Part shown: positions 21,268 through 63,428 of the stretch, one piece after another
Numbering within the stretch: position 1 is the first letter of the stretch
How the letters are laid out: each line of letters opens with the position of its first letter
Assembly (NCBI GenBank): GCA_963971305.1
Contig: OZ020306.1
Location: 4,704,842 to 4,768,841, forward strand
Length of the DNA: 64,000 nt
Direction of reading: 5' to 3'
DNA from: Arcuatula senhousia
Taxonomy: Eukaryota; Mollusca; Bivalvia; Mytilida; Mytilidae
Notes under the pieces: model-generated
What the model saw: the letters and a program-made list of their open reading frames with translations, nothing else
What the model was told of the DNA's origin: nothing
Databases searched by the model: none
Made by a program: the position numbers and the translations under genes

Positions 21268-21956
21268 TCAGACTACATAAGACAATAAAACTACAAATAT
21301 TTTATCAAATCTATATGGTACAACGTCATTAACATCACTGTGTTCGGAAAGATGCTTATCACCTATAAGAAATAATGATATGTTGCGTGGAATTTGAGGG
21401 GACAGGAACGACAGGTTTTCAATTAACGTTTGCCTTATTATCGCATATATAGGGCATTCAAAAAAGAAATGAAAAAGGGTTTCTTGCTGATACCCACATC
21501 TACAAGAGGGATCTTGTATGATGCCTACTCTGCTGAGGTCATAATAAAGAAAGGTGGCGCCACATCTCATTTGTGTTAAGATAATGTTTAATTTTCTAGG
21601 CCCATAACAGTTAAATTGGAAAAAAGCAGTGGTTTGGATTCTGATTTTTTAAAGCCTTTTTAAATTTTGAGATCGTAGGTAGGTTTCTGATAGTGGACTC
21701 TAAATTGTTCCATCATAACAAATGATTCCGTAGTTAACGATAATCTACAAAAAGGAATAACAAGATCATCTCTATTTCTTAACGGATAGTCTGATAAGCT
21801 ACTAATACTTGGGGGAGCCAGTCTACAGAGAAATGGGGGAGCAAGATTGTTCACCATAGTATACATCACTTGTAATTTTCTCCGATCGCACCTGGCTTTC
21901 AGGGTTTCCCATCCTACTTCATGATAGATCTGTTCTTTGTTCGTAAAAATAGGCAC
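21268..21956 (-). pseudogene. LINE 3' coding remnant (copy 1)
   Basis: Two minus-strand frames in element order. The first (21956-21660) reads GWETLKARCDRRKLQVMYTM then VNNLAPPFLCRLAPP, like the post-RT region of CR1/L2/Jockey-type LINEs. The second (21570-21268) has CRCGYQQETLFHFFFECPIY, a C-x-C-x(7)-H-x(4)-C zinc-knuckle-like motif typical of LINE C-termini. The 5' side is cut off where the minisatellite begins (about 21957). Confidence 0.75.
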
Positions 21957-21959
21957 ACC

Positions 21960-24900: not shown

Positions 24901-26396
24901 TCACCCTATACACCTGCCTCATAGGGAACATCATCATGTATACTGATATACGGTAACTCTACACACCTGCGTCCGTAGGATCATCATTTAGTACATTGAT
25001 ATACAGTCATTCTACACACCTGTCTCCCAGGGAAAATCATCCTGTACATTGCTAGAGTCACTCTACACACCTGCTTCATGGGGAACATCATCATGTATAC
25101 TGATAAACAGTCACTCTACACGCCCTGTTCCTTGGGAAAATCAACCTGTACACTGATATACAGTCACTCTACACACCTACCTCTATGAATAAATCATCCT
25201 GTACACTGATATGCAGTCACCCTACACAGCTGCCTCCTGGGGAACATTACCTTGTATACTGATATACAGTTTCTCTACACACCTGCTTCCCTGGGAGCAT
25301 CATCCTGTGCACAGATATACAGTCACTCTACACACCAACCTCCATGGGAACATCATCCTGTACACTGATATACAGTCACTCTACACACTTACCTCCATGG
25401 GAACATCATCCTGTACACTCATATACAGTCACTCTACACACTTACCTCCATAGGAACATCATCCTGTACACTGATGTACAGTCACACTACACACCTGCCT
25501 CCTATGGAACATCATCCTGTACACTGATATACAGTCACCCTTCACACATGCCTCCTGGGGAACATCATCATGTATACTGATATACAGTCACCCTACACAC
25601 CTGTCTCCCTAGGAACATCATCCAATACACCGATATACAGTTTCTCTACGAACCCACCTCCCTGGCAACATCATCCTGTACACAGATATACAGTCACTCT
25701 ACACACTTACCTCCCTTTGTACAAAATCCTGTACACTGATATACAGTCAATGTACACACAAACCTCCCTGGGAACATCATCATGTACACTGATATACAGT
25801 CACCCTACACTACTGCTTCAAGGGGAACATCATCATGTATACTGATATACAGTAACTCTACACACCTGCGTCCGAAGGATCATCATCCACAACACTGATA
25901 TACAGTCATTCTACACACCTGTCTCCCAGGGAAAATCATCTTGTACGTTGCTATAGAGTCACTCTACACACCTGCTTCATGGGGAAGATCATCTTGTATA
26001 CTGATAAACAGTCACTCTACACGCCCTGTTACTTGGGAATAGCATCCTGTACACTGATATACAGTCACTTTACACACCTACCTCTATGTGTAAATCATCC
26101 TGTACAATGATATGCAGTCACCCTACACAGCTGCCTCCTGGGGGAACATTATCTTGTATACTGATATACAGTTACTTTACACACATGCCTTCATAGAAAC
26201 ATCATTCAATACACCGATATACAGTCTCTCTACAAACCTGCTTCCCTGGGAGCATCATCCTGTACACAGATATACAGTCACTCTACACACCTACCTCCCT
26301 TGGTACATCATCCCGTACACAGATAAACAGTCACTCTACACACCAACCTCCATGCGAACATCATCCTGTACACTTATATACAGTCACTCTACACAC
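21960..26396. repeat. 53-bp minisatellite, array A
   Basis: About 84 units. The consensus runs CTCTACACACCTGCCTCCTG, GGGAACATCATCCTGTACAC, TGATATACAGTCA (53 bp). Unit divergence is roughly 5-20%. A six-unit (312-bp) higher-order duplication is present at 23021-23332 and 23333-23644. The consensus has no stop in any plus frame, which produces many incidental short open frames. Confidence 0.93.
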
Positions 26397-27481
26397 TGTG
26401 TTTTTTGAACTTTTTGTATCAACACAATTTTCTTAAGATTGAAGAGATATTTGAGGTATCAACACCGACTAAACAAATAAAACTAGACATTTGACTATAT
26501 TTGTACCGATTTGCATGCCTATGATAACCAAAGAAAAAGATAAACTTTCTCGATTATATATACTTTTGAAAAGGGGGAGGGTTTTTGGTTCATTTTGACA
26601 CCTAAAAGTGTTTTATTTAGAAAATTCCATAAGCTTTTAATTGTTAATTTTGATAAAATGTGCAAGAAGTATCATCTCTTTTTGAATATTTAAAAGGAAA
26701 TCAGCATAAACTAAACATAAGGCGTAAAATTTGGACAAAATGACATGTACCCCAAACAACTTTGTGAATTACAAAAAAATCTGTTTTTACAAAAGTTCAA
26801 AATTCAATTGCAATTTTACAATTATTTTTTTGCATAATTTTAAACTAGAAGTAGACATTTTTCAAATTCATCATTTAACATGAAATTATCGGATTTGTTA
26901 ATCACTTACATAGAGGTTTATTTAGAAAAAAGGGGGAGGGACATCAGATTTTAATTTTTAATTTAAACATATTTTATTTGAAACAATTTCAAAAGGGAAT
27001 CGGACACAAGTACAAAGTATTTATGAAGTCCTCTCCCGATAACAATACAATACAGAAATAGTTATGGACATGCACGTTCAAATATAAATATGATTGTGAT
27101 AAAGTAACAACAACAAAAATAATTAAGAAATAAAGTAAATTTAGGTAAATAAAAAGGGTAAATCAGAATGAGAAAAACTGCGTTTTTCATCTTGATATCA
27201 ATTTTTTGTTATCATTTTCAAAAATACAAAAGAATGAGCAGCAATTCTCAAATTATATATTTTATGATCTATCATGTGGTAAAATTCTAAAACAATCGAT
27301 GCCGATCTTCGGGGTGCTAAATCCGATTTAAGAAATGAGGTATCAAATTTCGTCGGATTTGCCAAATAAGGTAAAAGGGGCGGGACTTAATTTCCAATAG
27401 AAAATTCTTCTATTCGGGTTTTTCTAACTATTGAGTAATATTAATAAAATATAATGGTTTGGATAACTGTAAATTACTATG

Positions 27482-28170
27482 TCAGACTACATAAGACAAT
27501 AAAACTACAAATATTTTATCAAATCTATATGGTACAACGTCATTAACATCACTGTGTTCGGAAAGATGCTTATCACCTATAAGAAATAATGATATGTTGC
27601 GTGGAATTTGAGGGGACAGGAACGACAGGTTTTCAATTAACGTTTGCCTTATTATCGCATATATAGGGCATTCAAAAAAGAAATGAAAAAGGGTTTCTTG
27701 CTGATACCCACATCTACAAGAGGGATCTTGTATGATGCCTACTCTGCTGAGGTCATAATAAAGAAAGGTGGCGCCACATCTCATTTGTGTTAAGATAATG
27801 TTTAATTTTCTAGGCCCATAACAGTTAAATTGGAAAAAAGCAGTGGTTTGGATTCTGATTTTTTAAAGCCTTTTTAAATTTTGAGATCGTAGGTAGGTTT
27901 CTGATAGTGGACTCTAAATTGTTCCATCATAACAAATGATTCCGTAGTTAACGATAATCTACAAAAAGGAATAACAAGATCATCTCTATTTCTTAACGGA
28001 TAGTCTGATAAGCTACTAATACTTGGGGGAGCCAGTCTACAGAGAAATGGGGGAGCAAGATTGTTCACCATAGTATACATCACTTGTAATTTTCTCCGAT
28101 CGCACCTGGCTTTCAGGGTTTCCCATCCTACTTCATGATAGATCTGTTCTTTGTTCGTAAAAATAGGCAC
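27482..28170 (-). pseudogene. LINE 3' coding remnant (copy 2)
   Basis: Same residues as copy 1, carried by the 6,214-bp duplication rather than by separate retrotransposition. Confidence 0.75.
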
Positions 28171-28173
28171 ACC

Positions 28174-31100
28174 TGGTCACTCTACACACTTGCCGCCTGG
28201 GGAACATCATCCTGTATACTGATATACAATCACTCTACAAACCTGCCGCCACGGGAACATTATCCTGTAGACAGATATACAGTCATTCTACACACCTGCC
28301 TTCTGGGGAACATCATCCTGTATACTGAGATACATTCACCCTCCACACCAGCCTCCCGGAGAACATAACCCTGCACACTGATATACAGTCTCTCTACAAA
28401 CCTACATCCTTGGGAATATCATCCTGTACACTTTTTAAGAGTCATACTACACACCTGCCTCCTGCGGTCCATCATCCTGTATACTGAAATACAGTCACCC
28501 TCCACACCTGCCTCCTGGGGAACATAATCCTGCACACTGATGTACAGTCTCTCTACAAACCTACCTCTTGGGATTATAATCCTGTACACTTATATAGAGT
28601 CATTCTACACCTGCCTCCTAGGGAACATCATCCTGTATATTGGAATACAGTCACTCTACACACCTGTTTCCTTGGAAACATCATCCTGCACACTGATATT
28701 CAGTCATTCTACACACCTGCCTCCTGGGGAACATCATCCTATATACTGATTTACATTCACTCTACAAACCTGCCTCCTAGGGAACATCATCCTGTACACT
28801 GATATACAGTCACCCTACACACCTGCCTCCCTAGGAACATCATCCAATACACCGATATACAGTCTCTCGACGAACCTGCCACCCTGGCAACATCATCCTG
28901 TACACAGATATACAGTCACTCTACACACCTACCTCCGTGGGTACATCATCCTGTCTTGTACACTGATATACAGTCACCCAACACACTTGCCTCCTGGGGA
29001 TCCTCATCCTGTATACTCAACACACCTGCCTCTGGGGACATCATCCTGTACAATGATATACAGTCATTCTACACATCTGCCTCCTGGAGAACATAATCAT
29101 GTACACTGCTTTACAGTTTCTCTATACATCTACCTCCAGGGGAAAATCATTATGTACACAGATATTCAGTTACTATACAAATCTGCTTCCTTTGGAACAT
29201 CAACCTGTACACTAATATACAGTCACTCTACACACCTGCCTCATGGGAAACATCCTGCATACTGATAAACAGTCACTTGTCGAACCTGCCTACTGAGGAA
29301 CATCATCCTGTACAATGGTAAAAGTTTCTCTACACACCTGCATCCAGGGGAACATCATACTCTACACTGATATACAGTCTCTCTACACACCTGCCTCCTT
29401 GGGAATATTATCTTGTACACTGATATACAGTCTCTCAACACATCTGCCTCCTGGAAAACATCATCCTGTATTCTGATATAGTCAGTCCACAAACCTGCTT
29501 CCTGGGGAACATCATCCTGAACACTGGTTTACAGTCACTCTACACACCTGCCTCATGGGAAACATCCTGCATACTGATAAACAGTCACTTGTCGAACCTG
29601 CCTACTGAGGAACATCATCCTGTACAATGGTAAAAGTTTCTCTACACACCTGCATCCAGGGGAACATCATACTCTACACTGATATACAGTCTCTCTACAC
29701 ACCTGCCTCCTTGGGAATATTATCTTGTACACTGATATACAGTCTCTCAACACATCTGCCTCCTGGAAAACATCATCCTGTATTCTGATATAGTCAGTCT
29801 ACAAACCTGCTTCCTGGGGAACATCATCCTGAACACTGGTTTACAGTTTCTCTACACACCTGCCTCCAGGTGAACATCATCCTGTATACTAATATGCAGT
29901 CTCTCTACACACCTGCCTCCTGGAGAACATCATCCAGTATACCGATATAGAGTCTCTCTATACATCTGCCTCCTAGGAATATCATTCTGTACACCGATAT
30001 ACAGTCACTCTACACGCCCTGTTCCTTGGGAAAATCATCCTGTACACTGATATACAGTAACTCTACACACCTACCTCCATAGGAACATCATCCTATACAC
30101 TGATATACAGTCACCCTACACACCTGCCTCATGGGGAACATCATCATGTATACTGATATACAGTACCTCTACACACCTGCTTCCGTAGGATCATCATCCA
30201 GTACACTGATATACAGTCACTCTACACACCTGTCTCCCTTTGAACATCATCCTGTACACTTATATAGAGTCACTGTACACACCGGCCTCCTGTGAAATAT
30301 TATCCATTACACAGAAATGCAATCACTCTACGCACTTGCCACCAAAGGGAATATCATCCTGAAAACTGACATACAGTCAACCTACATATCTGTCTTATGG
30401 GGAACATCATCCTGTACACTGATATACTGTCACTACACACCTGCCTCCTAGGAAACATCATCCTGTACACTGGTATACAGTCACTCTACACACTTACTTC
30501 TTTGCGAACACAATCCTGTACACTGATATACAGTCACTCTACACACTTGCCGCCTGGGAACATCATCCTGTATACTGATATGCATTTATCTACAAACCTG
30601 CCTCCACGGGAACATTATCCTGTAGACAGATATACAGTCATTCTAAACACCTGCCTCTTGGTGAACATCATCCTGTATACTGATATACAGTCACCCTCCA
30701 CACCTGCCTCCTGGGGATCATAATCCTGCACACTGATATACAGTCTCTTTAAAAAGCTACCTCCTGGGGAACATCATCCTGTACACTTTTATAGAGTCAC
30801 CCTACACACCTGCCTCCCTAGGAACATCATCCAATACACCGATATACAGTCTCACTTCAAACCTGCTTCCCTAGGAATATCATCCTGTACACAGATATAC
30901 AGTCATTCTACACACCTACCTCCTTTGGTACATCATCCTGTACACAGATATACAGCCACTCTTCACACCTACCTCCATGGGAACCTCATCCTGTACACTA
31001 ATATACAGTCACTCTACACACCTACCTCCAAAGGAACATCATCCTGTACACTGATATACAGTCTACCTACACACATGCCTCCATAGGAACATCATCCTGT

Positions 31101-32610
31101 AAACTGATATACAGTCACCCTATACACCTGCCTCATAGGGAACATCATCATGTATACTGATATACGGTAACTCTACACACCTGCGTCCGTAGGATCATCA
31201 TTTAGTACATTGATATACAGTCATTCTACACACCTGTCTCCCAGGGAAAATCATCCTGTACATTGCTAGAGTCACTCTACACACCTGCTTCATGGGGAAC
31301 ATCATCATGTATACTGATAAACAGTCACTCTACACGCCCTGTTCCTTGGGAAAATCAACCTGTACACTGATATACAGTCACTCTACACACCTACCTCTAT
31401 GAATAAATCATCCTGTACACTGATATGCAGTCACCCTACACAGCTGCCTCCTGGGGAACATTACCTTGTATACTGATATACAGTTTCTCTACACACCTGC
31501 TTCCCTGGGAGCATCATCCTGTGCACAGATATACAGTCACTCTACACACCAACCTCCATGGGAACATCATCCTGTACACTGATATACAGTCACTCTACAC
31601 ACTTACCTCCATGGGAACATCATCCTGTACACTCATATACAGTCACTCTACACACTTACCTCCATAGGAACATCATCCTGTACACTGATGTACAGTCACA
31701 CTACACACCTGCCTCCTATGGAACATCATCCTGTACACTGATATACAGTCACCCTTCACACATGCCTCCTGGGGAACATCATCATGTATACTGATATACA
31801 GTCACCCTACACACCTGTCTCCCTAGGAACATCATCCAATACACCGATATACAGTTTCTCTACGAACCCACCTCCCTGGCAACATCATCCTGTACACAGA
31901 TATACAGTCACTCTACACACTTACCTCCCTTTGTACAAAATCCTGTACACTGATATACAGTCAATGTACACACAAACCTCCCTGGGAACATCATCATGTA
32001 CACTGATATACAGTCACCCTACACTACTGCTTCAAGGGGAACATCATCATGTATACTGATATACAGTAACTCTACACACCTGCGTCCGAAGGATCATCAT
32101 CCACAACACTGATATACAGTCATTCTACACACCTGTCTCCCAGGGAAAATCATCCTGTACGTTGCTATAGAGTCACTCTACACACCTGCTTCATGGGGAA
32201 GATCATCTTGTATACTGATAAACAGTCACTCTACACGCCCTGTTACTTGGGAATAGCATCCTGTACACTGATATACAGTCACTTTACACACCTACCTCTA
32301 TGTGTAAATCATCCTGTACAATGATATGCAGTCACCCTACACAGCTGCCTCCTGGGGGAACATTATCTTGTATACTGATATACAGTTACTTTACACACAT
32401 GCCTTCATAGAAACATCATTCAATACACCGATATACAGTCTCTCTACAAACCTGCTTCCCTGGGAGCATCATCCTGTACACAGATATACAGTCACTCTAC
32501 ACACCTACCTCCCTTGGTACATCATCCCGTACACAGATAAACAGTCACTCTACACACCAACCTCCATGCGAACATCATCCTGTACACTTATATACAGTCA
32601 CTCTACACAC
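28174..32610. repeat. 53-bp minisatellite, array B
   Basis: Copy of array A inside segment copy 2. Confidence 0.93.
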
Positions 32611-35600
32611 TGTGTTTTTTGAACTTTTTGTATCAACACAATTTTCTTAAGATTGAAGAGATATTTGAGGTATCAACACCGACTAAACAAATAAAACTAG
32701 ACATTTGACTATATTTGTACCGATTTGCATGCCTATGATAACCAAAGAAAAAGATAAACTTTCTCGATTATATATACTTTTGAAAAGGGGGAGGGTTTTT
32801 GGTTCATTTTGACACCTAAAAGTGTTTTATTTAGAAAATTCCATAAGCTTTTAATTGTTAATTTTGATAAAATGTGCAAGAAGTATCATCTCTTTTTGAA
32901 TATTTAAAAGGAAATCAGCATAAACTAAACATAAGGCGTAAAATTTGGACAAAATGACATGTACCCCAAACAACTTTGTGAATTACAAAAAAATCTGTTT
33001 TTACAAAAGTTCAAAATTCAATTGCAATTTTACAATTATTTTTTTGCATAATTTTAAACTAGAAGTAGACATTTTTCAAATTCATCATTTAACATGAAAT
33101 TATCGGATTTGTTAATCACTTACATAGAGGTTTATTTAGAAAAAAGGGGGAGGGACATCAGATTTTAATTTTTAATTTAAACATATTTTATTTGAAACAA
33201 TTTCAAAAGGGAATCGGACACAAGTACAAAGTATTTATGAAGTCCTCTCCCGATAACAATACAATACAGAAATAGTTATGGACATGCACGTTCAAATATA
33301 AATATGATTGTGATAAAGTAACAACAACAAAAATAATTAAGAAATAAAGTAAATTTAGGTAAATAAAAAGGGTAAATCAGAATGAGAAAAACTGCGTTTT
33401 TCATCTTGATATCAATTTTTTGTTATCATTTTCAAAAATACAAAAGAATGAGCAGCAATTCTCAAATTATATATTTTATGATCTATCATGTGGTAAAATT
33501 CTAAAACAATCGATGCCGATCTTCGGGGTGCTAAATCCGATTTAAGAAATGAGGTATCAAATTTCGTCGGATTTGCCAAATAAGGTAAAAGGGGCGGGAC
33601 TTAATTTCCAATAGAAAATTCTTCTATTCGGGTTTTTCTAACTATTGAGTAATATTAATAAAATATAATGGTTTGGATAACTGTAAATTACTATGTCAGA
33701 CTACATAAGACAATAAAACTACAAATATTTTATCAAATCTATATGGTACAACGTCATTAACATCACTGTGTTCGGAAAGATGCTTATCACCTATAAGAAA
33801 TAATGATATGTTGCGTGGAATTTGAGGGGACAGGAACGACAGGTTTTCAATTAACGTTTGCCTTATTATCGCATATATAGGGCATTCAAAAAAGAAATGA
33901 AAAAGGGTTTCTTGCTGATACCCACATCTACAAGAGGGATCTTGTATGATGCCTACTCTGCTGAGGTCATAATAAAGAAAGGTGGCGCCACATCTCATTT
34001 GTGTTAAGATAATGTTTAATTTTCTAGGCCCATAACAGTTAAATTGGAAAAAAGCAGTGGTTTGGATTCTGATTTTTTAAAGCCTTTTTAAATTTTGAGA
34101 TCGTAGGTAGGTTTCTGATAGTGGACTCTAAATTGTTCCATCATAACAAATGATTCCGTAGTTAACGATAATCTACAAAAAGGAATAACAAGATCATCTC
34201 TATTTCTTAACGGATAGTCTGATAAGCTACTAATACTTGGGGGAGCCAGTCTACAGAGAAATGGGGGAGCAAGATTGTTCACCATAGTATACATCACTTG
34301 TAATTTTCTCCGATCGCACCTGGCTTTCAGGGTTTCCCATCCTACTTCATGATAGATCTGTTCTTTGTTCGTAAAAATAGGCACACCTGGTCACTCTACA
34401 CACTTGCCGCCTGGGGAACATCATCCTGTATACTGATATACAATCACTCTACAAACCTGCCGCCACGGGAACATTATCCTGTAGACAGATATACAGTCAT
34501 TCTACACACCTGCCTTCTGGGGAACATCATCCTGTATACTGAGATACATTCACCCTCCACACCAGCCTCCCGGAGAACATAACCCTGCACACTGATATAC
34601 AGTCTCTCTACAAACCTACATCCTTGGGAATATCATCCTGTACACTTTTTAAGAGTCATACTACACACCTGCCTCCTGCGGTCCATCATCCTGTATACTG
34701 AAATACAGTCACCCTCCACACCTGCCTCCTGGGGAACATAATCCTGCACACTGATGTACAGTCTCTCTACAAACCTACCTCTTGGGATTATAATCCTGTA
34801 CACTTATATAGAGTCATTCTACACCTGCCTCCTAGGGAACATCATCCTGTATATTGGAATACAGTCACTCTACACACCTGTTTCCTTGGAAACATCATCC
34901 TGCACACTGATATTCAGTCATTCTACACACCTGCCTCCTGGGGAACATCATCCTATATACTGATTTACATTCACTCTACAAACCTGCCTCCTAGGGAACA
35001 TCATCCTGTACACTGATATACAGTCACCCTACACACCTGCCTCCCTAGGAACATCATCCAATACACCGATATACAGTCTCTCGACGAACCTGCCACCCTG
35101 GCAACATCATCCTGTACACAGATATACAGTCACTCTACACACCTACCTCCGTGGGTACATCATCCTGTCTTGTACACTGATATACAGTCACCCAACACAC
35201 TTGCCTCCTGGGGATCCTCATCCTGTATACTCAACACACCTGCCTCTGGGGACATCATCCTGTACAATGATATACAGTCATTCTACACATCTGCCTCCTG
35301 GAGAACATAATCATGTACACTGCTTTACAGTTTCTCTATACATCTACCTCCAGGGGAAAATCATTATGTACACAGATATTCAGTTACTATACAAATCTGC
35401 TTCCTTTGGAACATCAACCTGTACACTAATATACAGTCACTCTACACACCTGCCTCATGGGAAACATCCTGCATACTGATAAACAGTCACTTGTCGAACC
35501 TGCCTACTGAGGAACATCATCCTGTACAATGGTAAAAGTTTCTCTACACACCTGCATCCAGGGGAACATCATACTCTACACTGATATACAGTCTCTCTAC

Positions 35601-38600
35601 ACACCTGCCTCCTTGGGAATATTATCTTGTACACTGATATACAGTCTCTCAACACATCTGCCTCCTGGAAAACATCATCCTGTATTCTGATATAGTCAGT
35701 CCACAAACCTGCTTCCTGGGGAACATCATCCTGAACACTGGTTTACAGTCACTCTACACACCTGCCTCATGGGAAACATCCTGCATACTGATAAACAGTC
35801 ACTTGTCGAACCTGCCTACTGAGGAACATCATCCTGTACAATGGTAAAAGTTTCTCTACACACCTGCATCCAGGGGAACATCATACTCTACACTGATATA
35901 CAGTCTCTCTACACACCTGCCTCCTTGGGAATATTATCTTGTACACTGATATACAGTCTCTCAACACATCTGCCTCCTGGAAAACATCATCCTGTATTCT
36001 GATATAGTCAGTCTACAAACCTGCTTCCTGGGGAACATCATCCTGAACACTGGTTTACAGTTTCTCTACACACCTGCCTCCAGGTGAACATCATCCTGTA
36101 TACTAATATGCAGTCTCTCTACACACCTGCCTCCTGGAGAACATCATCCAGTATACCGATATAGAGTCTCTCTATACATCTGCCTCCTAGGAATATCATT
36201 CTGTACACCGATATACAGTCACTCTACACGCCCTGTTCCTTGGGAAAATCATCCTGTACACTGATATACAGTAACTCTACACACCTACCTCCATAGGAAC
36301 ATCATCCTATACACTGATATACAGTCACCCTACACACCTGCCTCATGGGGAACATCATCATGTATACTGATATACAGTACCTCTACACACCTGCTTCCGT
36401 AGGATCATCATCCAGTACACTGATATACAGTCACTCTACACACCTGTCTCCCTTTGAACATCATCCTGTACACTTATATAGAGTCACTGTACACACCGGC
36501 CTCCTGTGAAATATTATCCAGTACACAGAAATGCAATCACTCTACGCACTTGCCACCAAAGGGAATATCATCCTGAAAACTGACATACAGTCAACCTACA
36601 TATCTGTCTTATGGGGAACATCATCCTGTACACTGATATACTGTCACTACACACCTGCCTCCTAGGAAACATCATCCTGTACACTGGTATACAGTCACTC
36701 TACACACTTACTTCTTTGCGAACACAATCCTGTACACTGATATACAGTCACTCTACACACTTGCCGCCTGGGAACATCATCCTGTATACTGATATGCATT
36801 TATCTACAAACCTGCCTCCACGGGAACATTATCCTGTAGACAGATATACAGTCATTCTAAACACCTGCCTCTTGGGGAACATCATCCTGTATACTGATAT
36901 ACAGTCACCCTCCACACCTGCCTCCTGGGGATCATAATCCTGCACACTGATATACAGTCTCTTTAAAAAGCTACCTCCTGGGGAACATCATCCTGTACAC
37001 TTTTATAGAGTCACCCTACACACCTGCCTCCCTAGGAACATCATCCAATACACCGATATACAGTCTCACTTCAAACCTGCTTCCCTAGGAATATCATCCT
37101 GTACACAGATATACAGTCATTCTACACACCTACCTCCTTTGGTACATCATCCTGTACACAGATATACAGCCACTCTTCACACCTACCTCCATGGGAACCT
37201 CATCCTGTACACTAATATACAGTCACTCTACACACCTACCTCCAAAGGAACATCATCCTGTACACTGATATACAGTCTACCTACACACATGCCTCCATAG
37301 GAACATCATCCTGTAAACTGATATACAGTCACCCTATACACCTGCCTCATAGGGAACATCATCATGTATACTGATATACGGTAACTCTACACACCTGCGT
37401 CCGTAGGATCATCATTTAGTACATTGATATACAGTCATTCTACACACCTGTCTCCCAGGGAAAATCATCCTGTACATTGCTAGAGTCACTCTACACACCT
37501 GCTTCATGGGGAACATCATCATGTATACTGATAAACAGTCACTCTACACGCCCTGTTCCTTGGGAAAATCAACCTGTACACTGATATACAGTCACTCTAC
37601 ACACCTACCTCTATGAATAAATCATCCTGTACACTGATATGCAGTCACCCTACACAGCTGCCTCCTGGGGAACATTACCTTGTATACTGATATACAGTTT
37701 CTCTACACACCTGCTTCCCTGGGAGCATCATCCTGTGCACAGATATACAGTCACTCTACACACCAACCTCCATGGGAACATCATCCTGTACACTGATATA
37801 CAGTCACTCTACACACTTACCTCCATGGGAACATCATCCTGTACACTCATATACAGTCACTCTACACACTTACCTCCATAGGAACATCATCCTGTACACT
37901 GATGTACAGTCACACTACACACCTGCCTCCTATGGAACATCATCCTGTACACTGATATACAGTCACCCTTCACACATGCCTCCTGGGGAACATCATCATG
38001 TATACTGATATACAGTCACCCTACACACCTGTCTCCCTAGGAACATCATCCAATACACCGATATACAGTTTCTCTACGAACCCACCTCCCTGGCAACATC
38101 ATCCTGTACACAGATATACAGTCACTCTACACACTTACCTCCCTTTGTACAAAATCCTGTACACTGATATACAGTCAATGTACACACAAACCTCCCTGGG
38201 AACATCATCATGTACACTGATATACAGTCACCCTACACTACTGCTTCAAGGGGAACATCATCATGTATACTGATATACAGTAACTCTACACACCTGCGTC
38301 CGAAGGATCATCATCCACAACACTGATATACAGTCATTCTACACACCTGTCTCCCAGGGAAAATCATCCTGTACGTTGCTATAGAGTCACTCTACACACC
38401 TGCTTCATGGGGAAGATCATCTTGTATACTGATAAACAGTCACTCTACACGCCCTGTTACTTGGGAATAGCATCCTGTACACTGATATACAGTCACTTTA
38501 CACACCTACCTCTATGTGTAAATCATCCTGTACAATGATATGCAGTCACCCTACACAGCTGCCTCCTGGGGGAACATTATCTTGTATACTGATATACAGT

Positions 38601-38824
38601 TACTTTACACACATGCCTTCATAGAAACATCATTCAATACACCGATATACAGTCTCTCTACAAACCTGCTTCCCTGGGAGCATCATCCTGTACACAGATA
38701 TACAGTCACTCTACACACCTACCTCCCTTGGTACATCATCCCGTACACAGATAAACAGTCACTCTACACACCAACCTCCATGCGAACATCATCCTGTACA
38801 CTTATATACAGTCACTCTACACAC
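32611..38824. repeat. 6,214-bp tandem segment, copy 3
   Basis: Again offset by exactly 6,214 bp. I noticed no private differences. At 38824 the sequence continues into unduplicated minisatellite instead of restarting, so this is the outer right breakpoint. Confidence 0.93.
33696..34384 (-). pseudogene. LINE 3' coding remnant (copy 3)
   Basis: Third copy, same residues, inside segment copy 3. Confidence 0.75.
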
Positions 38825-41800
38825 TTACCTCCATTGGAACATCATCCTGTACACTGATGTACAGTCACCCTACACACCTGCCTCCTATGGAACATCATCC
38901 TGTACACTGACATACAGTCACCCTACACTCCTGCTTCATGGGGAACATCATCATGTATACTGATATTCAGTAACTCTACACACCTGCGTCCGTAGGATCA
39001 TCATCCAGTACACTGATATACAGTTACTCTACAGACCGGTCTCCCAAAAAAAAAATCATCCTGTACACTGATTTAAAGTCACTCTACACAGCTGCCTCCT
39101 GGGGAACATCATCTTGTATACTGATAAACAGTTACTCTACACACCTGTCTCCCAAGGAACCTCATCCAATACACCGATATACAGTCTCTCTACAAACCTG
39201 CTTCCCTGGGAACATCATCCTGTATACAGATATACAGTCACTCTACACACCTACCTCCCTTGGTACATCATCCTTTACACAGATATACAGTCACTCTACA
39301 CACCAACCTCCATTGGGAACATCATCCAGTACACTGATATACAGTCACTCTACACACCTGTCTCCCTGGGAACATCATCCTGTACACTGATATAGAATCA
39401 CATCCAGTACACAGAAATACATAGAATATCATCCAGTACACAGAAATACAATTACTCTACACACTTTCCACCAAGGGAATATCATCCTGAAAACTGACAT
39501 ACAGTCAACCTAACTATCTGTCTTACGGGGAACATCATCCTGTACTCTGATATACTGTCACTCTACACACCTGCCTCAAAGGGAACATCATCCTGTACAC
39601 TGTGATACAGTCACTCTTCACACTTATCTCTTTGCAAAAACCATCCTATACACTGATATACATTCACGCTACAAACCTGCCTCCACGTGAAGATTATCCT
39701 GTAGACAGATATACAGTCATTCTACAGACCTGCCTCATGGGAACATCATCCTGTATACTAATACACAGTCACCCTCCACACCAGCCTCCCGGAAAACATA
39801 ACCCTTCACACTGATATACAGTCTCTCTACAAACCTACATCCTTGGGAATATCATCCTGTACACTTTTAAAGAGTCATCCTACACACCTGCCTCCTGGGG
39901 ACCATCATCCTTTATACTGATATACAGTCACCCTCCACACCTGCCTCCTGGGGAGCATAATCCTGCACACTGATATACAGCCTGTCTACAAACCTACCTC
40001 TTTGGATTATCTTCCTGTACACTTATATAGAGTAACACTACACACCTGCCTCCTGGGGAACATCATCCTATATACTGATTTACATTCACTCTACAAACAT
40101 GCCTCTTAGGGAACATCAACCTGTACACTGAAATACAGTCACCCTACACACCTGCGTCCTGGGGAACATCATCATGCATACTGATATACGGTTACTCTAC
40201 ACGCCTGCCTCCTGGGGAACATCATCCAATACACCGATATACAGTCTCTCCACAAACCTGCCTCCCTGCAAACATCATCCAGTACACTGATATACAGTCA
40301 TTCTACACACCTACTTCCATGGGAACATCATCCTGCACACTGATAAACAGTCACTCTATACACCTACCTCATGGGGAACACCATAATGTATACTGATATA
40401 CAGTAACTCTACACACCTGCCTCCATATGATCATCATCCGGTACACTGATATACAGTCACTCTGCACACCTGTCTCCTTGGGAACATCGTCCTGTACTCT
40501 GATATACAGTCACTCTACACACCTGCCTCATGGTGAACATCATCATGTATACTGATATACAGTAATTCTACACACCTGTCTCCGTAGGATCATCATCCAA
40601 TACACTGATATACAGTCACTCTTTACATCTGTCTCCCTGGAAACATCATCCTGTACACTGATGTTAAGTCACTCTACACACTTGCCACCAAGGGAATATC
40701 ATCCTGAAACTTGACATATAGTCAACCTACATATCTGTCTTATGGGTAACATCATCCTGTACACTGATATACAGTCACTATACACACCTGCCTCCTAGGG
40801 AACATCATCCTGAACACGGATATACAGTCTCTTAACACACCTACCTCCTGTGGAACATCATCAAGTACACCGATGCTGTACAATGATACACAGTCACTCT
40901 ACTAACCTGCCTCCTGGGGAACATCATCCTGTATACTGATATACAGTCACTCTACACACTTGCCAGAAAGGGAATATCATCCTGAAAACTGATATACAGA
41001 CAACCTACATATTATCTATCTCATGGGGAACAGCATTATGCACACAGATATAAAGTCACTCTACACACCTTCCTCCTGGGGAACATCATCCTGTACACTG
41101 ATACACAGTCACCCTACACACCTGCCTCATGGGTACATCATGCTGTACACTGATATTCAGTCACTCTACACACCTACCTCCCTGGGAACATCATCCAGTA
41201 CACTGATATACAGTCACTCTACACACCTACTTCCCTGGGAACATCATCAAGTACACTGATATACAGTCACTCTACACACCTGCTTCCTTGGAAACATTAT
41301 CATGCAAACTGATAAACAGTCATTCTACACACCTGCCTCCTGTGGAACATCATCCTGTATACTGATTTACATTCACTCTACAAACCTGACTCCTAGGGAA
41401 CATCATCCTGTACACTGATATACAGTCACCATACACACCTGCCACCTGGGGAACATCATCATGCATACTGATATACAGTTACTCTAAACGCCTGCCTCCC
41501 TATGAACATCATCCAATACATCGATAAACAGTCTTTCCACAAACCTGCCTCCCTGCAAACATCATCCAGTACACTGATATACAGTCATTCTACACACCTA
41601 CTTCCATGGGAACATCATCCTGCTACACATCTCCCTCGTGGGGAACATCATCATGTATACTGATATACAGTCACTCTGCACACCTGTCTCCCTGGGAACA
41701 TCATCCTATACACTGATATACAGTCACTCTACACACCTGCTTCATGGGGAACATCATCATGTATACTGATATACAGTAACTCTACACACCTGCCTCCGTA

Positions 41801-57497: not shown

Positions 57498-57608
57498 ATG
57501 AAGTTTTATCTAAGTGACAGCTCAAAAGACACTAACAATGAGAGAAGAAATAGCAGCAGCAGTTGTTTTCCTGACGAGGGTTGTTCGTCAATGTGGCAGT
57601 ATTGCCAA
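57498..57608 (+). promoter_or_regulatory. Upstream ORF overlapping the BTG start codon
   Basis: An ATG at 57498, in a different frame from the main ORF, opens a reading frame of about 36 codons that runs through the BTG ATG (57538) and stops near 57608. Together with the short uORF in the first exon this would be expected to limit initiation at the BTG start. Whether it is used cannot be told from sequence. Confidence 0.4.
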
Positions 57609-57848
57609 TGACAAAATGGAATCATTTTCTGACAGTTTATCAGCTGCTTTAGTTGAGAGATATAAGAACCACTGGTATAATGATCATCCCGCCAAAGGAC
57701 AGGCATACAGATGTATTAGGATTAGTCCTGAAGAACCAGTTGATCCAGTAATCGAGAGAGCTTTGAGCAAAAGTAATCTGGGATACAGAGATCTGATGCT
57801 ATATTGTGAACTGACATTATGGGTTGATCCTAGTGATGTTTGTTTCAG
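57538..57848 (+). CDS. BTG3: BTG first coding exon
   Basis: 311 nt, 103 codons plus two bases, ending in DVCF plus AG of an arginine codon. The donor is GTACAC at 57849. The open frame beyond it to 57888 is intronic. Confidence 0.92.
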
Positions 57849-60800
57849 GTACACCTGTAGATTTGAAATAAACCTTTTAAGGTTTTAACAATTTAGATTA
57901 TGATAATTTATGTCGATGACACTACATGCATATTTTAACATTTATATGTTCTATACATGTAACAATGTTTTTATGCCCCCGGGACTACATATCGGGTGGG
58001 GGGCATTAAGTTTTACTGATGTCAGTATGTATGTCCGTCCGTATGAATTTCCATCAAGCTTTTCTCACAAACGGTACATGAGAATGATTTGAAACTCAGT
58101 AGGATGGTTCAGTATGACAAACTGTTCATCAAGAGCGACTTTAAGACCTGTCAGACTTAAGCTTCTACTTCCTCTTTGGGGCTGGAACGAGATGAAAAAA
58201 TTACATGAAAAATAACCGTCAAGCTTTTCTCAGAAACTGTACGTGAGAATGATTTGAAATTTGGTAAGATGGTTCAGTATGACAAACTGTATGTCCTAAG
58301 CTACTTTCAGACCTGTTCACTGTTGGACTTCTACTTTCTATTATGGTGCCAGCTGGGGCACCTGTGTCCCATAGACACATTCTTTCTTTATTTTCAATAA
58401 CTATCTTGTTTTGGAGTGATAACCCTGGAGCATTAACATTGGCTTACCAGCTAGTTATTTGAAACTATGGTTTCATCATATAGACCTTTACAAATTTATA
58501 ACTACCTTGTCATGCTTGTAGACAAATAATATTTTCTTTATCATATTTTATTTATAAAAGAGTTATATTGCATTTTGTAGATTTGGTGAATCATTTGGAG
58601 CAATCTGCACACTGGCAACATCAAAGGATGGAAATATGGAAAATAAAGCACACACTGTTGACATTGATGAATATCTGCAGAAAGAAAAAGATAGATACAA
58701 CAATCAGGTAATGTTCACATAACAATAATACATGTACAATCAAGGCATGGAAAGACATTATTTCAGTTTATTGTGATAATTTGTAATACATGTATGTACT
58801 TAAGTAAGTTCTCTTATTTATACATGTTATATCTTGAAACAAGCCAAAATAAACCAGCACCAAACTGTTTCTTAAATATCTCAATTTTTATGAAAAGAAA
58901 AAGGACAACAACATCAACTGGATTTGCAAGTCTATGTCTTTATTTCTGTTTGACCGACTAGTTTCGGTGCCTAGGGCACCGTCATCAGGGTACAGATATT
59001 AAAAAAATAGGACCTGAAGTACAAATGTGGGTTCATAAAATATGACGTCATAATTAAGAGTCCATGACGACGTTGAAAATGAAAGTGAAAGTAAAATTTA
59101 ACTATTAATAGAAATAATGGTTTAAAATATCTCAAGGCAAAAAAAAAAAACAATAATACAAAGTTATCAAATTTGTGTAGAGTTTCTTAATACTATGGTG
59201 CCAAGTTTGTAGTATGTTTTTGGTTGGCAAGAGGTTTGTTTCAGTTTTGTTAAATTCACATGTTGGTTGAGTTTGTAAAGTCAACATTTTTTGCACTGTT
59301 CTGGTGATTTTAAGACTTTCATCAGGCATTATCAATGATGAATGGCGGGTATTCCAGTGGACACACATTCTATACCCCCGTACCACTTCCCCTGGTTTCC
59401 CTCCTGGCCAATAGAGGTACTGCTCCCAAGAGCGTCGGGGGGTATAAGAATGACGGGGATTGTCGCAATAAGGAAGTCTGTTGATTATCAATCTATTATG
59501 TTCATAATGATATGGTATTGAATGTAATTCTCCATGGGTGGTTTGGTTTTGGGTTTTTTGACTCATTAAAAAATTCTGCTTTCTTGTAAATAGTTCGAAT
59601 ACGGCTTCCAAGTCACTGTTGGTTTATGTTTTTATAATTGTATCAATTTAGCTTTACACATGTGAATAGTGGATTTTTAAATGAGTACACAATATTTCTC
59701 TGCTGGTGTATTAATGGTTATACTGGTTTCTCAAGTCCTTTTGAATCTATTGTATATGTAGGGCACTGGGTACGAAATCTTTGGGATAATCCAGGTTTCC
59801 TTTTGAAGTTAAAGAGCTAAGTTGATCTGTGGGTTCCTTCCAATAAGTTGTGGGTTCAAGTAAGTTTATCAGTGTGTTGATACTCCGTGCAGTTGGCTGT
59901 GGGTTCAGCGCGGGTTCGTGCAACGGCGGTTTCCTTAGAGGAATGCAGGGGTTCACAAAGAATAATAAATTAAACGGAAAAGTGAACCAACGCCGGTTTC
60001 TTTGGGTTCATCAGAAATCCAGATGAGGATACCTCTTGGTATGCTGGGTTGTCTCTATCAACATTAAAATGAAAAGAAAAAGGACAACAACATCAACTGG
60101 ATTTGCAAGTCTATGTCTTTATTTCTGTTTGACCGACTAGTTTCGGTGCCTAGGGCACCGTCATCAGGGTACAGATATTAAAAAAATAGGACCTGAAGTA
60201 CAAATGTGGGTTCATAAAATATGACGTCATAATTAAGAGTCCATGACGACGTTGAAAATGAAAGTGAAAGTAAAATTTAACTATTAATAGAAATAATGGT
60301 TTAAAATATCTCAAGGCAAAAAAAAAAAAAACAATAATACAAAGTTATCAAATTTGTGTAGAGTTTCTTAATACTATGGTGCCAAGTTTGTAGTATGTTT
60401 TTGGTTGGCAAGAGGTTTGTTTCAGTTTTGTTAAATTCACATGTTGGTTGAGTTTGTAAAGTCAACATTTTTTGCACTGTTCTGGTGATTTTAAGACTTT
60501 CATCAGGCATTATCAATGATGAATGGCGGGTATTCCAGTGGACACACATTCTATACCCCCGTACCACTTCCCCTGGTTTCCCTCCTGGCCAATAGAGGTA
60601 CTGCTCCCAAGAGCGTCGGGGGTATAAGAATGACGGGGATTGTCGCAATAAGGAAGTCTGTTGATTATCAATCTATTATGTTCATAATGATATGGTATTG
60701 AATGTAATTCTCCATGGGTGGTTTGGTTTTGGGTTTTTTGACTCATTAAAAAATTCTGCTTTCTTGTAAATAGTTCGAATACGGCTTCCAAGTCACTGTT

Positions 60801-63428
60801 GGTTTATGTTTTTATAATTGTATCAATTTAGCTTTACACATGTGAATAGTGGATTTTTAAATGAGTACACAATATTTCTCTGCTGGTGTATTAATGGTTA
60901 TACTGGTTTCTCAAGTCCTTTTGAATCTATTGTATATGTAGGGCACTGGGTACGAAATCTTTGGGATAATCCAGGTTTCCTTTTGAAGTTAAAGAGCTAA
61001 GTTGATCTGTGGGTTCCTTCCAATAAGTTGTGGGTTCAAGTAAGTTTATCAGTGTGTTGATACTCCGTGCAGTTGGCTGTGGGTTCAGCGCGGGTTCGTG
61101 CAACGGCGGTTTCCTTAGAGGAATGCAGGGGTTCACAAAGAATAATAAATTAAACGGAAAAGTGAACCAACGCCGGTTTCTTTGGGTTCATCAGAAATCC
61201 AGATGAGGATACCTCTTGGTATGCTGGGTTGTCTCTATCAACATTAAAATGAAAAGAAAAAGGACAACAACATCAACTGGATTTGCAAGTCTATGTCTTT
61301 ATTTCTGTTTGACCGACTAGTTTCGGTGCCTAGGGCACCGTCATCAGGGTACAGATATTAAAAAAATAGGACCTGAAGTACAAATGTGGGTTCATAAAAT
61401 ATGACGTCATAATTAAGAGTCCATGACGACGTTGAAAATGAAAGTGAAAGTAAAATTTAACTATTAATAGAAATAATGGTTTAAAATATCTCAAGGCAAA
61501 AAAAAAAAAACAATAATACAAAGTTATCAAATTTGTGTAGAGTTTCTTAATACTATGGTGCCAAGTTTGTAGTATGTTTTTGGTTGGCAAGAGGTTTGTT
61601 TCAGTTTTGTTAAATTCACATGTTGGTTGAGTTTGTAAAGTCAACATTTTTTGCACTGTTCTGGTGATTTTAAGACTTTCATCAGGCATTATCAATGATG
61701 AATGGCGGGTATTCCAGTGGACACACATTCTATACCCCCGTACCACTTCCCCTGGTTTCCCTCCTGGCCAATAGAGGTACTGCTCCGAAGAGCGTCGGGG
61801 GGTATAAGAATGACGGGGATTGTCGCAATAAGGAAGTCTGTTGATTATCAATCTATTATGTTCATAATGATATGGTATTGAATGTAATTCTCCATGGGTG
61901 GTTTGGTTTTGGGTTTTTTGACTCATTAAAAAATTCTGCTTTCTTGTAAATAGTTCGAATACGGCTTCCAAGTCACTGTTGGTTTATGTTTTTATAATTG
62001 TATCAATTTAGCTTTACACATGTGAATAGTGGATTTTTAAATGAGTACACAATATTTCTCTGCTGGTGTATTAATGGTTATACTGGTTTCTCAAGTCCTT
62101 TTGAATCTATTGTATATGTAGGGCACTGGGTACGAAATCTTTGGGATAATCCAGGTTTCCTTTTGAAGTTAAAGAGCTAAGTTGATCTGTGGGTTCCTTC
62201 CAATAAGTTGTGGGTTCAAGTAAGTTTATCAGTGTGTTGATACTCCGTGCAGTTGGCTGTGGGTTCAGCGCGGGTTCGTGCAACGGCGGTTTCCTTAGAG
62301 GAATGCAGGGGTTCACAAAGAATAATAAATTAAACGGAAAAGTGAACCAACGCCGGTTTCTTTGGGTTCAAAGATATTTTATGAACCCACATTTGTACTT
62401 CAGGTCCTATTTTTTTAATATCTGTACCCTGATGACGGTGCCCTAGGCACCGAAACTAGTCGGTCAAACAGAAATAAAGACATAGACTTGCAAATCCAGT
62501 TGATGTTGTTGTCCTTTTTCTTTTCATTTTAATGTTGATAGAGACAACCCAGCATACCAAGAGGTATCCTCATCTGGATTTCTGATGAACCCAAAGAAAC
62601 CGGCGTTGGTTCACTTTTCCGTTTAATCTCAATTTTTAGTTGATTTATTTGACAGGTGTTGTTTAGATTCATAATTGGAAATTAGAATAAAAAAAAAGGT
62701 TTTGACTGTTTGTATGTTTTCTTAATTTACATGTATGTACAAATGTACTTTACATCAACTCAATTATTTGCTTCTTCTTGGTTGTTATACACCTCCAGAT
62801 ATTAAATATTCTATCAAAACAAAATCTGGTTTAGTGTTTTATTTGTGCAAAAACATTTATGTTAAAATCCAATAAGTGAAAGTTTTTTCTGTGTGTTTGT
62901 ACAGATGGTGAAATTATTCTTGTCTTGTAGGTTAACATTGTAACAACAAGATCAAACACTTCATCCCGTCCATATGCCAACAATCATAATCTAGTCTACA
63001 GCGGGTACCATTACAACCACCACCGACATCATCGAAGTAGTAGTAAGCGTAAACAACAAGAGCAGCAAGTCAACGGTGTGCGATACTCTCCAGACCATGT
63101 CAATGAGGTACGACAACAGTTTCTGAATCAGGTTAACAGCATAGCTGGGAAGTCCAAGTCTGACGATGAGCAGGCCATGTCTCTGTCTTCTGATGATGGA
63201 GGATCTCTGTCTGACAGCAGCAAGTCACCTGACCAGAGCCCAGAAAAATCTCAAAAGAAAAATCTGCAATCAACAAAAGCTCACCATAGTAAGGGGAAAA
63301 ATACCTCAAATCTGAATCAGGGAAAGTCTAGACCAAGCAGTCAGGGTGTGAAGCAGAAGAGTGGAGAGTATTTCTGGGGGAAAGCTGCCAACCATACCAA
63401 GTTCAATCAGGCACAAAAGGTTCATTAG
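57538..63428 (+). CDS. BTG3: BTG/Tob family antiproliferative protein, BTG3/BTG4-like
   Basis: join(57538..57848, 58581..58707, 62931..63428): 936 nt, 311 aa. The BTG (APRO) domain fills residues 1-~120. It has the N-terminal EIAAAVVFLTRVVR helix, box A (YKNHWYNDHPAKGQAYRCIR), and box B (ELTLWVDPSDVCFRFGE) spanning the exon 1-2 junction. The KGQAYRCIR and DVCxR versions and the MxxEIAA start place it with BTG3/BTG4 rather than BTG1/2 or Tob; I cannot separate BTG3 from BTG4. Known family role: the APRO domain binds the CAF1/CNOT7 deadenylase and promotes mRNA decay and growth arrest. The C-terminal half is unlike the proline-rich vertebrate BTG3 tail: a His-rich patch (YHYNHHRHHRSSSKRK, about residues 173-188), then acidic/Ser-rich and Lys-rich low complexity. 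The GTG 24 nt upstream is not the start. Intron 2 hosts the 3.7-kb ribozyme-bearing insertion. Confidence 0.92.
57967..58395 (+). repeat. Interspersed repeat in BTG intron 1
   Basis: Begins TATGCCCCCGGGACTACATA, 'tcgggtggggggcattaag'. It contains two related halves ('caagcttttctca(c/g)aaac(g/t)gtac(a/g)tgagaatgatttgaaa', at about 58053 and 58209) and ends 'ggcacctgtgtcccatagacaca'. No ORF. It looks like another widespread non-autonomous element. Confidence 0.6.
58581..58707 (+). CDS. BTG3: BTG second coding exon
   Basis: 127 nt after the acceptor TTTTGTAG, completing the Arg codon and encoding FGESFGAICTLATSKDGNME, NKAHTVDIDEYLQKEKDRYN, NQ. It ends in phase 0 at the donor GTAATG. Confidence 0.9.
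58891..60069 (-). repeat. Unit 1 of 1,179-bp tandem repeat
   Basis: On the plus strand it begins TGAAAAGAAAAAGGACAACA and ends 'caacattaaaa'. It contains a hammerhead motif (58946-58995, minus), a poly(A) tract in the plus sense (about 59139-59150), and an imperfect hairpin with CATTCTATACCCCCG and CGGGGGGTATAAGAATG arms (59366-59380 and 59436-59452). The 159-codon minus-strand frame through it is not supported as a gene. Confidence 0.88.
58946..58995 (-). ncRNA. Hammerhead ribozyme-like motif, unit 1
   Basis: The minus strand has the core CTGATGA, a 6-bp stem II (GGTGCC/GGCACC, loop CTA), GAAA, a palindromic stem III (ACTAGT) and a cleavage-site C. Stem I is ACC/GGT plus CTG/CAG around an internal loop (T opposite CAAA). 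This is type I topology. One irregularity: an extra C between CTGATGA and stem II leaves a C-C at the stem base, or pairs with the core G. Predicted cleavage is between 58956 and 58955. Confidence 0.75.
60070..61249 (-). repeat. Unit 2 of 1,180-bp tandem repeat
   Basis: Same as unit 1 apart from a handful of small changes, including one G fewer in the hairpin arm (about 60618), which shifts the incidental frame, and a longer A-run near 60320. Confidence 0.88.
60125..60174 (-). ncRNA. Hammerhead ribozyme-like motif, unit 2
   Basis: Same 50 nt as in unit 1, 1,179 bp away, so cleavage at both would release a unit-length RNA. Confidence 0.75.
61250..62370 (-). repeat. Unit 3 of the tandem repeat, lacking the last 59 bp
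   Basis: Follows units 1-2 closely (G for C near 61787). It stops after TTTGGGTTCA, and the next base starts the inverted segment. Confidence 0.88.
61305..61354 (-). ncRNA. Hammerhead ribozyme-like motif, unit 3
   Basis: Same 50 nt, 1,180 bp from the unit 2 motif. Confidence 0.75.
62371..62627 (+). repeat. Inverted partial copy spanning a unit-unit junction
   Basis: Reverse complement of the end of one unit plus the beginning of the next: it runs from the GGGTTCATAAAATAT region through the hammerhead, across TGAAAAGAAA|TTTTAATGTTG, to the CCGGCGTT/AAACGGAAA region. A single linear unit could not supply this piece; a tandem or circular template could. Confidence 0.85.
62422..62471 (+). ncRNA. 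Hammerhead ribozyme-like motif in BTG sense orientation
   Basis: Same 50 nt in the inverted segment, therefore present in BTG pre-mRNA. Core CTGATGA at 62429-62435, GAAA at 62452-62455, predicted cleavage after the C at 62461. Confidence 0.72.
62639..62930. other. BTG intron 2, right part
   Basis: AT-rich intronic sequence between the insertion and the last exon; nothing recognised except the splice acceptor. Confidence 0.4.
62931..63428 (+). CDS. BTG3: BTG last coding exon
   Basis: 498 nt after the acceptor TCTTGTAG, in phase 0. It encodes VNIVTTRSNTSSRPYANNHN and onward through the His-rich and Ser/Asp-rich tail to TAG at 63426-63428. An alternative acceptor (TGTACAG at about 62898-62904) would break the frame. 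Confidence 0.88.
   Translation, partial: VNIVTTRSNTSSRPYANNHNLVYSGYHYNHHRHHRSSSKRKQQEQQVNGVRYSPDHVNEVRQQFLNQVNSIAGKSKSDDEQAMSLSSDDGGSLSDSSKSPDQSPEKSQKKNLQSTKAHHSKGKNTSNLNQGKSRPSSQGVKQKSGEYFWGKAANHTKFNQAQKVH

Follow-up and report, generated by a model that had tools for sequence, protein, structure and literature searches.

The window, i.e., the whole 64-kb stretch of DNA that was analysed, contains an AAR2 open reading frame (ORF) at 9.8-10.6 kb, of which the best named match is from Mytilus edulis (73% identity), and a BTG-family exon at 57514-57885. At this identity, the host is probably a bivalve resembling mussels but not M. edulis itself. Downstream of this exon, and antisense to it, lies an insertion built of tandem units, which is probably located in an intron of the BTG-family gene, as judged from further open frames. 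Elsewhere, the window holds a 6,214-bp segment that is repeated in tandem as three near-identical copies (approximately 20183-38825; offsets 6214 and 12428), representing either a recent duplication or an assembly artefact, and a 27-kb minisatellite-like tract (21962-49205) with units of approximately 53 bp and a strong GC skew. Degenerate LINE reverse transcriptase (RT) ORFs (RVT_1) are present on the minus strand at 51.5-55.4 kb, and LINE-1 ORF2 is among the best solved matches of one of them. These RT ORFs were considered as a Penelope-like element (PLE) and rejected, as they are LINE-type and not PLE-like.

Architecture of the insertion and its hammerhead motif

The insertion spans 58880-62637 and is flanked on both sides by the target duplication CTCAATTTTT. 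The minus strand of the window is taken as the RNA sense of its units, and unit coordinates are counted from the first base past the predicted ribozyme cut (+1). It is composed as follows:

58880..58889, plus strand: left target-site duplication CTCAATTTTT (13 bp, 58878-58890, counting ambiguous bases)
58890..62370, minus strand (RNA sense): arm A, approximately 2.95 tandem units, from the RT start at 58890 (site A, +66) to the cDNA limit at 62370 (unit +125)
58891..60069, minus strand: unit 1, 1,179 bp
58956..58988, minus strand: minimal type I hammerhead of unit 1 (descriptor scan), predicted cut after 58956
60070..61249, minus strand: unit 2, 1,180 bp
60135..60167, minus strand: minimal type I hammerhead of unit 2 (descriptor scan)
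61250..62370, minus strand: unit 3, truncated, 1,121 bp
61315..61347, minus strand: minimal type I hammerhead of unit 3 (descriptor scan)
62371..62373, no strand: filler AAG, 3 nt, at the head-to-head arm joint, belonging to neither arm
62374..62627, plus strand: arm B, the inverted piece of 254 nt, covering unit 1093 to +166, with its RT start (site B) at 62627
62429..62461, plus strand: minimal type I hammerhead of arm B (descriptor scan)
62628..62637, plus strand: right target-site duplication CTCAATTTTT

The original prediction described three units of these lengths, which is borne out by starts at 58891, 60070 and 61250 and by the cut of the third unit at 62370. The three units are one substitution and two homopolymer-length changes apart. 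In unit coordinates, +66 is the end of the direct array and +166 that of the inverted piece; this piece is 100% complementary to 61149-61402 and has a 42-nt overlap with the end of the direct array. When the flanks of the insertion are joined, the empty site is recovered plain. The predicted 11-bp target duplication proved real, but its length needs correction: 10 bp are exact and 13 bp are reached with ambiguous ends, 11 lying inside this ambiguity. There are exactly two exact occurrences of CTCAATTTTT in the window, where 0.5 is expected, and two or more are found in 10 of 100 shuffles. As the bare 10-mer is not rare, the evidential weight is on its position at both ends of the insertion.

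At the arm joint, an 8-bp palindrome was considered as an indication of self-priming and set aside; GGGTTC is over-represented in the unit, so the palindrome may be a coincidence. GAACCC is present seven times on the sense strand of the window unit (e.g., 60070-61249) and zero times on the other strand. None of the four unit ORFs scanned contains a Pfam family at its cut-off, and the longest one (217 aa) additionally has no homologue at E ≤ 1. The unit thus does not carry the RT and GIY-YIG endonuclease ORF of autonomous PLEs, and can therefore only be non-autonomous.

A ribozyme once per unit had been predicted, and this is what a custom descriptor finds on both strands of the window: four predicted sites, in the three units and the inverted piece, and none outside the insertion. 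The background of this descriptor is one match in 60 random Markov sequences as long as the window. Rfam reports no hammerhead in the window, either at gathering or at E ≤ 10, probably because helix III of the motif is only 2 bp. This minimal form is attributed in literature to PLEs. Because ACUAGU is self-complementary, two ribozyme copies could form a joint 6-bp helix, and dimer action of minimal hammerhead variants is mentioned in a review. On the sense strand, each unit has three CTGATGA sequences where 0.09 would be expected; two of these three were rejected as ribozymes since they have no helix II. The core pattern is present in 48 of 55 genomic copies examined, helix II being broken or shortened in a few.

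The window hammerhead has an extra base, a C, between A9 and helix II. For comparison, 10 distinct three-helix sites were collected from viral contigs, which had been selected by a search pattern for a base at this position; seven have a true extra base, which is U every time, and three pair it. Scanning prokaryote genome contigs once, and viral ones a second time, yielded nothing. One viral contig (L005, 5664-6062) contains two three-helix hammerheads on one strand, 362 nt apart, around a 100-aa ORF; if they are active, a small RNA carrying this ORF would be excised.

Start sites and two-armed copies across the genome

The original prediction proposed an assembly search for solo and tandem copies. 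This was run on the 1.036-Gb assembly, in which the window lies at C4:4704842-4768841, and one- and two-armed copies, target duplications and inverted ends were tabulated. The unit search gave at least 106 matches (from the best 40 of 178 candidates scored), and a search with the ribozyme core pattern gave 53 exact matches against none for the reversed control. The regions read comprise 34 from the unit search, some of them widened, three from a second search and one of the five new places from the pattern search; a unit-search place on C1735 and the other four new pattern-search places were left out of the reading.

The 3' ends of the genomic copies lie mostly at one of two sites. Site A is located mainly at +65 to +72, right after CTTTTCAT (BLAST ends at +57 to +79), and site B at +165 to +180, right after CTTTTCCGTTTAAT. 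The spacing between A and B is approximately 100 nt, while the tails given in the published PLE papers, as far as these were available, are 30-40 bp. The 20 one-armed copies end at A (eight), at B (nine) or elsewhere (three); L039 was set aside from the A count, being the outer end of the two-armed copy C3. A possible third start site is seen near unit 1014-1021 in L048, L052 and L068.

Flanking sequences share 9 nt or more in 18 of 30 loci tested, compared to 1.3% of 870 mismatched flank pairs. All 13 two-armed loci in the test set are among those that share, and L112, compared separately, shares 14 nt. Seven of the 37 loci (L053, L059, L061 and L068-L071) were left out of this test, an earlier comparison having given no shared flank or at most 6 nt there. 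The remaining 12 of the 30 tested loci share less than 9 nt, which means that many copies, mostly one-armed and diverged, are without a clear duplication. An AT-rich target and a target duplication of variable length, which are features of PLEs, are also found in this family.

Eighteen copies are head-to-head, with the 3' ends of the arms outward and their 5' ends meeting. The joints mostly consist of 0-4 nt of common sequence or a few filler bases; the unusual ones are found in L041 (35 nt taken from another part of the unit), L047 (15-nt overlap) and L054 (10-nt gap). Both ends were mapped, and a target duplication is present, in 14 of the 18. Eleven of these have one end at A and the other at B (the window, C3 comprising L039 and L040, L038, L041, L042, L045, L047, L060, L082, L083 and L084), three combine A or B with another site (L048, B and unit ~1017-1021; L054, A and +112; L112, B and +6), and none has the same site twice. 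With independent choice at the one-armed proportions, half of the pairs would be mixed, which for 11 of 11 gives p = 5e-4, the three other pairs being left out. The four uncounted two-armed copies are L052 (B and ~1015, no duplication), L061 (B and +58, its second end concealed by another insertion) and the complex L053 and L070; equal ends are found in none of them.

These two start sites recur across the genome, and the inverted piece in the window is therefore read as a second arm. The original prediction correctly described it as spanning a unit junction, but it is not the oddity of a single insertion, as the second arm starts approximately 100 nt further downstream and the same sites are used genome-wide. 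Four of the two-armed copies (L082, L083, L084 and L112) are tiny, with arms that break off at unit 1140-1148, close to the initial bases of the ribozyme core; short ribozyme repeats in L082 and L083 suggest template jumps. Long gaps in genomic copies were considered as an autonomous version and rejected: judged by eye, those of C3 (two gaps; L039 and L040) and of L047 hold long LINE-like ORFs, and that of L041 has no long ORF.

As predicted originally, Penelope-like enzymes are encoded elsewhere in the genome. There are at least 140 GIY-YIG matches (from the best 150 of 1,106 candidates scored) and, among the matches listed, neighbours less than 7 kb apart are head-to-head (-+) in 20 cases, on the same strand in 13 and tail-to-tail (+-) in none. 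In the one frame checked, a 912-aa frame at C1:25059127, an RVT_1 domain (E 5.5e-11) is located upstream of the GIY-YIG match; the frame has no solved relative at E ≤ 0.01. The GIY-YIG loci are taken for PLEs. In the PLE array L086, which has a 912-aa frame, the ribozyme core is, by eye, apparently CCGACGA instead of CTGATGA, with helix II kept.

Of the 20 head-to-head GIY-YIG neighbour pairs, 12 loci were read at their outer ends. Eleven were resolved, the ends not being reached in one, and all 11 end at two different sites, 84-99 nt apart in 10 loci and 36 nt apart in one. Five of them, belonging to one family, share 11-18 nt of flank, and six lie in TA-rich repeats where the duplication length is not measurable. 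Arms were assigned to A or B by eye and then checked by motif, with C8:14506809 having no relative for confirmation. When both sets are pooled, each of the 22 insertions with both ends at A or B combines the two sites (p ~2e-7 under independent ends, with the proportions of the one-armed ribozyme-unit copies applied to the GIY-YIG families as well). Among the matches listed, no autonomous element with the ribozyme/start-site module of the window family was found, and the 12 GIY-YIG loci read carry other cis modules.

Unit identity, the template and rival explanations

Eight loci supplied 22 near-full units of 900 nt or more, whose relatedness was determined with gaps ignored. Substitutions amount to 0.11% within an arm (12 pairs) and 0.15% between the arms of one locus (12 pairs), compared to 3.2% between loci (207 pairs; range 0.86-8.6%, or 0.9-3.4% without the most divergent locus, L045). 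Of 28 within-locus derived variants, 25 are confined to a single unit or, for one of them, to the two units of one arm; 16 are private to their locus and 12 are also found elsewhere, ten of these in one or two other copies. Unit-for-unit copying of multi-unit RNAs over generations would make the divergence within arrays equal to that between loci, so a bottleneck of one unit at each insertion is the simplest explanation for the low values within arrays. The clonality of the units thereby speaks for a circular RNA that was reverse-transcribed repeatedly, although it is no proof of this. Derived variants common to two or three consecutive units are present in C3, which points to local duplication of units after insertion at that locus.

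The region from -51 to +170 differs at 4 of 221 sites, vs 170 of 959 in the body of the unit (eight loci, gaps counted; Fisher p = 3e-12), and among the same number of loci only one site differs in the 70 nt around the ribozyme. Judged by this sequence conservation, the ribozyme module is under constraint. Only one of 38 hand-listed arm 5' ends lies within 2 nt of the predicted cut (L082-L084 and L112, with stops near 1140-1148, are not on the list, nor are some of the one-armed copies), which argues that cut, linear RNA is not the usual template.

By its architecture, as read from the DNA, the window insertion is a non-autonomous PLE. The array is likely, in our judgement, a young, non-coding PLE insertion made by dual target-primed reverse transcription from sites A and B, probably on a circular template. 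We infer a mechanism in which a PLE enzyme acting in trans would cut both target strands with a stagger of approximately 10 nt, after which each target 3' end would prime reverse transcription inside the element's sense RNA, one at A (+66) and the other at B (+166). The cDNAs would extend, in some copies across several units, and their ends would meet head-to-head through a short stretch of microhomology or filler. The near-identity of all units in an insertion, whichever arm they belong to, indicates as the probable template a single monomer-length sequence that was traversed repeatedly, most simply a circle arising from putative ribozyme cleavage and ligation. The part of the original prediction that derived the retroelement from a multimeric or circular RNA template is supported, and that this RNA was self-processed or circular is suggested by unit clonality.

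The template of dual priming could instead have been a linear multimeric RNA, transcribed from an array already present and not cleaved, with the hammerhead inert or acting later and with gene conversion or unequal exchange keeping the units uniform. The variants shared by consecutive units of C3, a mark of local duplication, fit such a history. However, the contrast between 0.11-0.15% and 3.2% would require homogenisation at every multi-unit locus, inverted arms included, and the confinement of most derived variants to single units as well as the strong conservation of the ribozyme region argue in the same direction, making this explanation rather unlikely. A metazoan retrozyme, i.e., a canonical type I hammerhead on a small self-paired circle with tandem copies inserted by a PLE or LINE, would account for the non-coding, ribozyme-bearing tandem units and their target duplications, and retrozymes are known from mussels. 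This reading is improbable given the 2-bp helix III of the minimal type attributed to PLEs, the 1,180-nt unit vs 170-400 nt, and the predicted folding of the 1,180-nt sense circle, which at -215.5 kcal/mol is close to the mean of 25 random sequences (-218.4, sd 14.6) and has a paired fraction of 0.55 vs 0.53. Since the hammerhead is of the minimal PLE type and the predicted circle is not unusually self-paired, the original wording "retrozyme-like" is not supported, whereas its remark that the unit is far above the small hammerhead circles of animals is correct (3-7 times larger).

Two further explanations do without a PLE. An inverted piece on the 5' side of the RNA with a 42-nt overlap resembles twin priming, and remnants of LINE RT lie a few kb away, so that a LINE-type insertion with twin priming and 5' inversion from the transcript of a satellite array was considered. 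It is very improbable in view of the 3' end without poly(A), the recurrence of A and B, and the two-site geometry that is also present in the GIY-YIG loci of the same genome. Satellite expansion through unequal crossing-over, followed by an inversion, or else an assembly artefact, could explain the high identity of the units, and a 6.2-kb near-identical triplication does exist elsewhere in the window; the target duplications, recurrent termini and equal architecture at many separate loci leave this explanation hardly credible.

Returning to dual priming by a PLE enzyme on a probably circular template, a tentative extension, which we put at somewhat less than an even chance, is that the two RTs of a dimer on one circular RNA must start at different sites and then chase each other round the circle. 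If true, one step would account for units in tandem, the terminal copy in inverted orientation, a tail confined to one end and the clonality of both arms, and the PLE hammerhead would be the maker of the circular template. Counter-evidence to the A/B rule is provided by the three of 14 two-armed and three of 20 one-armed copies that end at other sites. The ordinary predicted stability of the circle likewise counts against the main reading, as do the shared variants of C3.

Comparison with known systems

The novelty of the window insertion itself is modest (a non-coding 1.18-kb unit), and attention is due to the pattern of two arms, two start sites and one near-identical unit. The different-site rule and the near-identical arms lead to a testable model of two primers, two sites and one template. 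In L1 twin priming, two primers likewise act on one RNA, giving an inverted 5' part and a joint with microhomology or overlap. L1 reverse transcription starts at poly(A), unlike that of the window family, and to our knowledge L1 has no fixed second start site, which is another difference.

Three structural features of PLEs are found here: copies that are wholly or partly tandem and include an inverted one at the terminus (in the window and further loci), a repeated terminal region that bears a minimal type I hammerhead, and an optional tail, i.e., a second 3' end at a fixed distance downstream, corresponding to A and B at approximately 100 nt. PLE insertion and the role of the hammerhead are described as little known (PMC11167929, PMC7761336). 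Inverted pLTRs, one-sided tails, internal RT starts and extension on both strands have already been published (PMC7229834, PMC11167929, PMC3846280, PMC7761336, PMC6155905, PMC8969392, PMC10294476, PMC6685494). In the parts of the PLE literature covered by the search, no statement was found that differing start sites of the two arms are the rule; novelty is not established.

Metazoan non-LTR retrozymes, for which circular RNA and mobilisation by PLEs have been proposed, are likewise tandem arrays of non-coding units, each of which has one type I hammerhead (PMC7229834). Their units of ~170-400 nt, canonical hammerheads with helix III and highly self-paired circles are not shared by the window family. 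Head-to-head arms are present here, while none are described for retrozymes in the available parts of that source (PMC7229834).

Penelope elements of Adineta vaga have an inverted pLTR, an optional tail at one end and duplications of 8-10 bp (PMC3846280). The window insertion resembles Pen2a_Av and the gene mobilised by Pen3a in having two direct terminal repeats and one inverted one, the inverted repeat overlapping the direct one, and non-coding or foreign DNA is carried in trans in that species as well (PMC3846280). Unlike in these elements, the window unit is wholly non-coding, an arm can comprise as many as several near-identical units, and the end spacing is approximately 100 nt vs a tail of 31 bp (PMC3846280).

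PAc (Poseidon, Anolis carolinensis) encodes RT and EN, unlike the window family, and its start sites are closer, with a tail of 30-40 bp (PMC11167929). In vitro, its ribozyme is not needed for insertion, unprocessed RNA is the main substrate and there are no RNA ends at the cut (PMC11167929). Together with the start sites in bulk, these results speak against a strict two-site rule or a circle in PAc. Like the window family, PAc has a hammerhead in the pLTR region with two RT starts downstream of it, and in vitro its reverse transcription starts internally at two sites, with both target strands cut and extended (PMC11167929). The genomic ends of the window family pair A with B, whereas in bulk PAc has no difference in start site between the top and bottom strand (PMC11167929).
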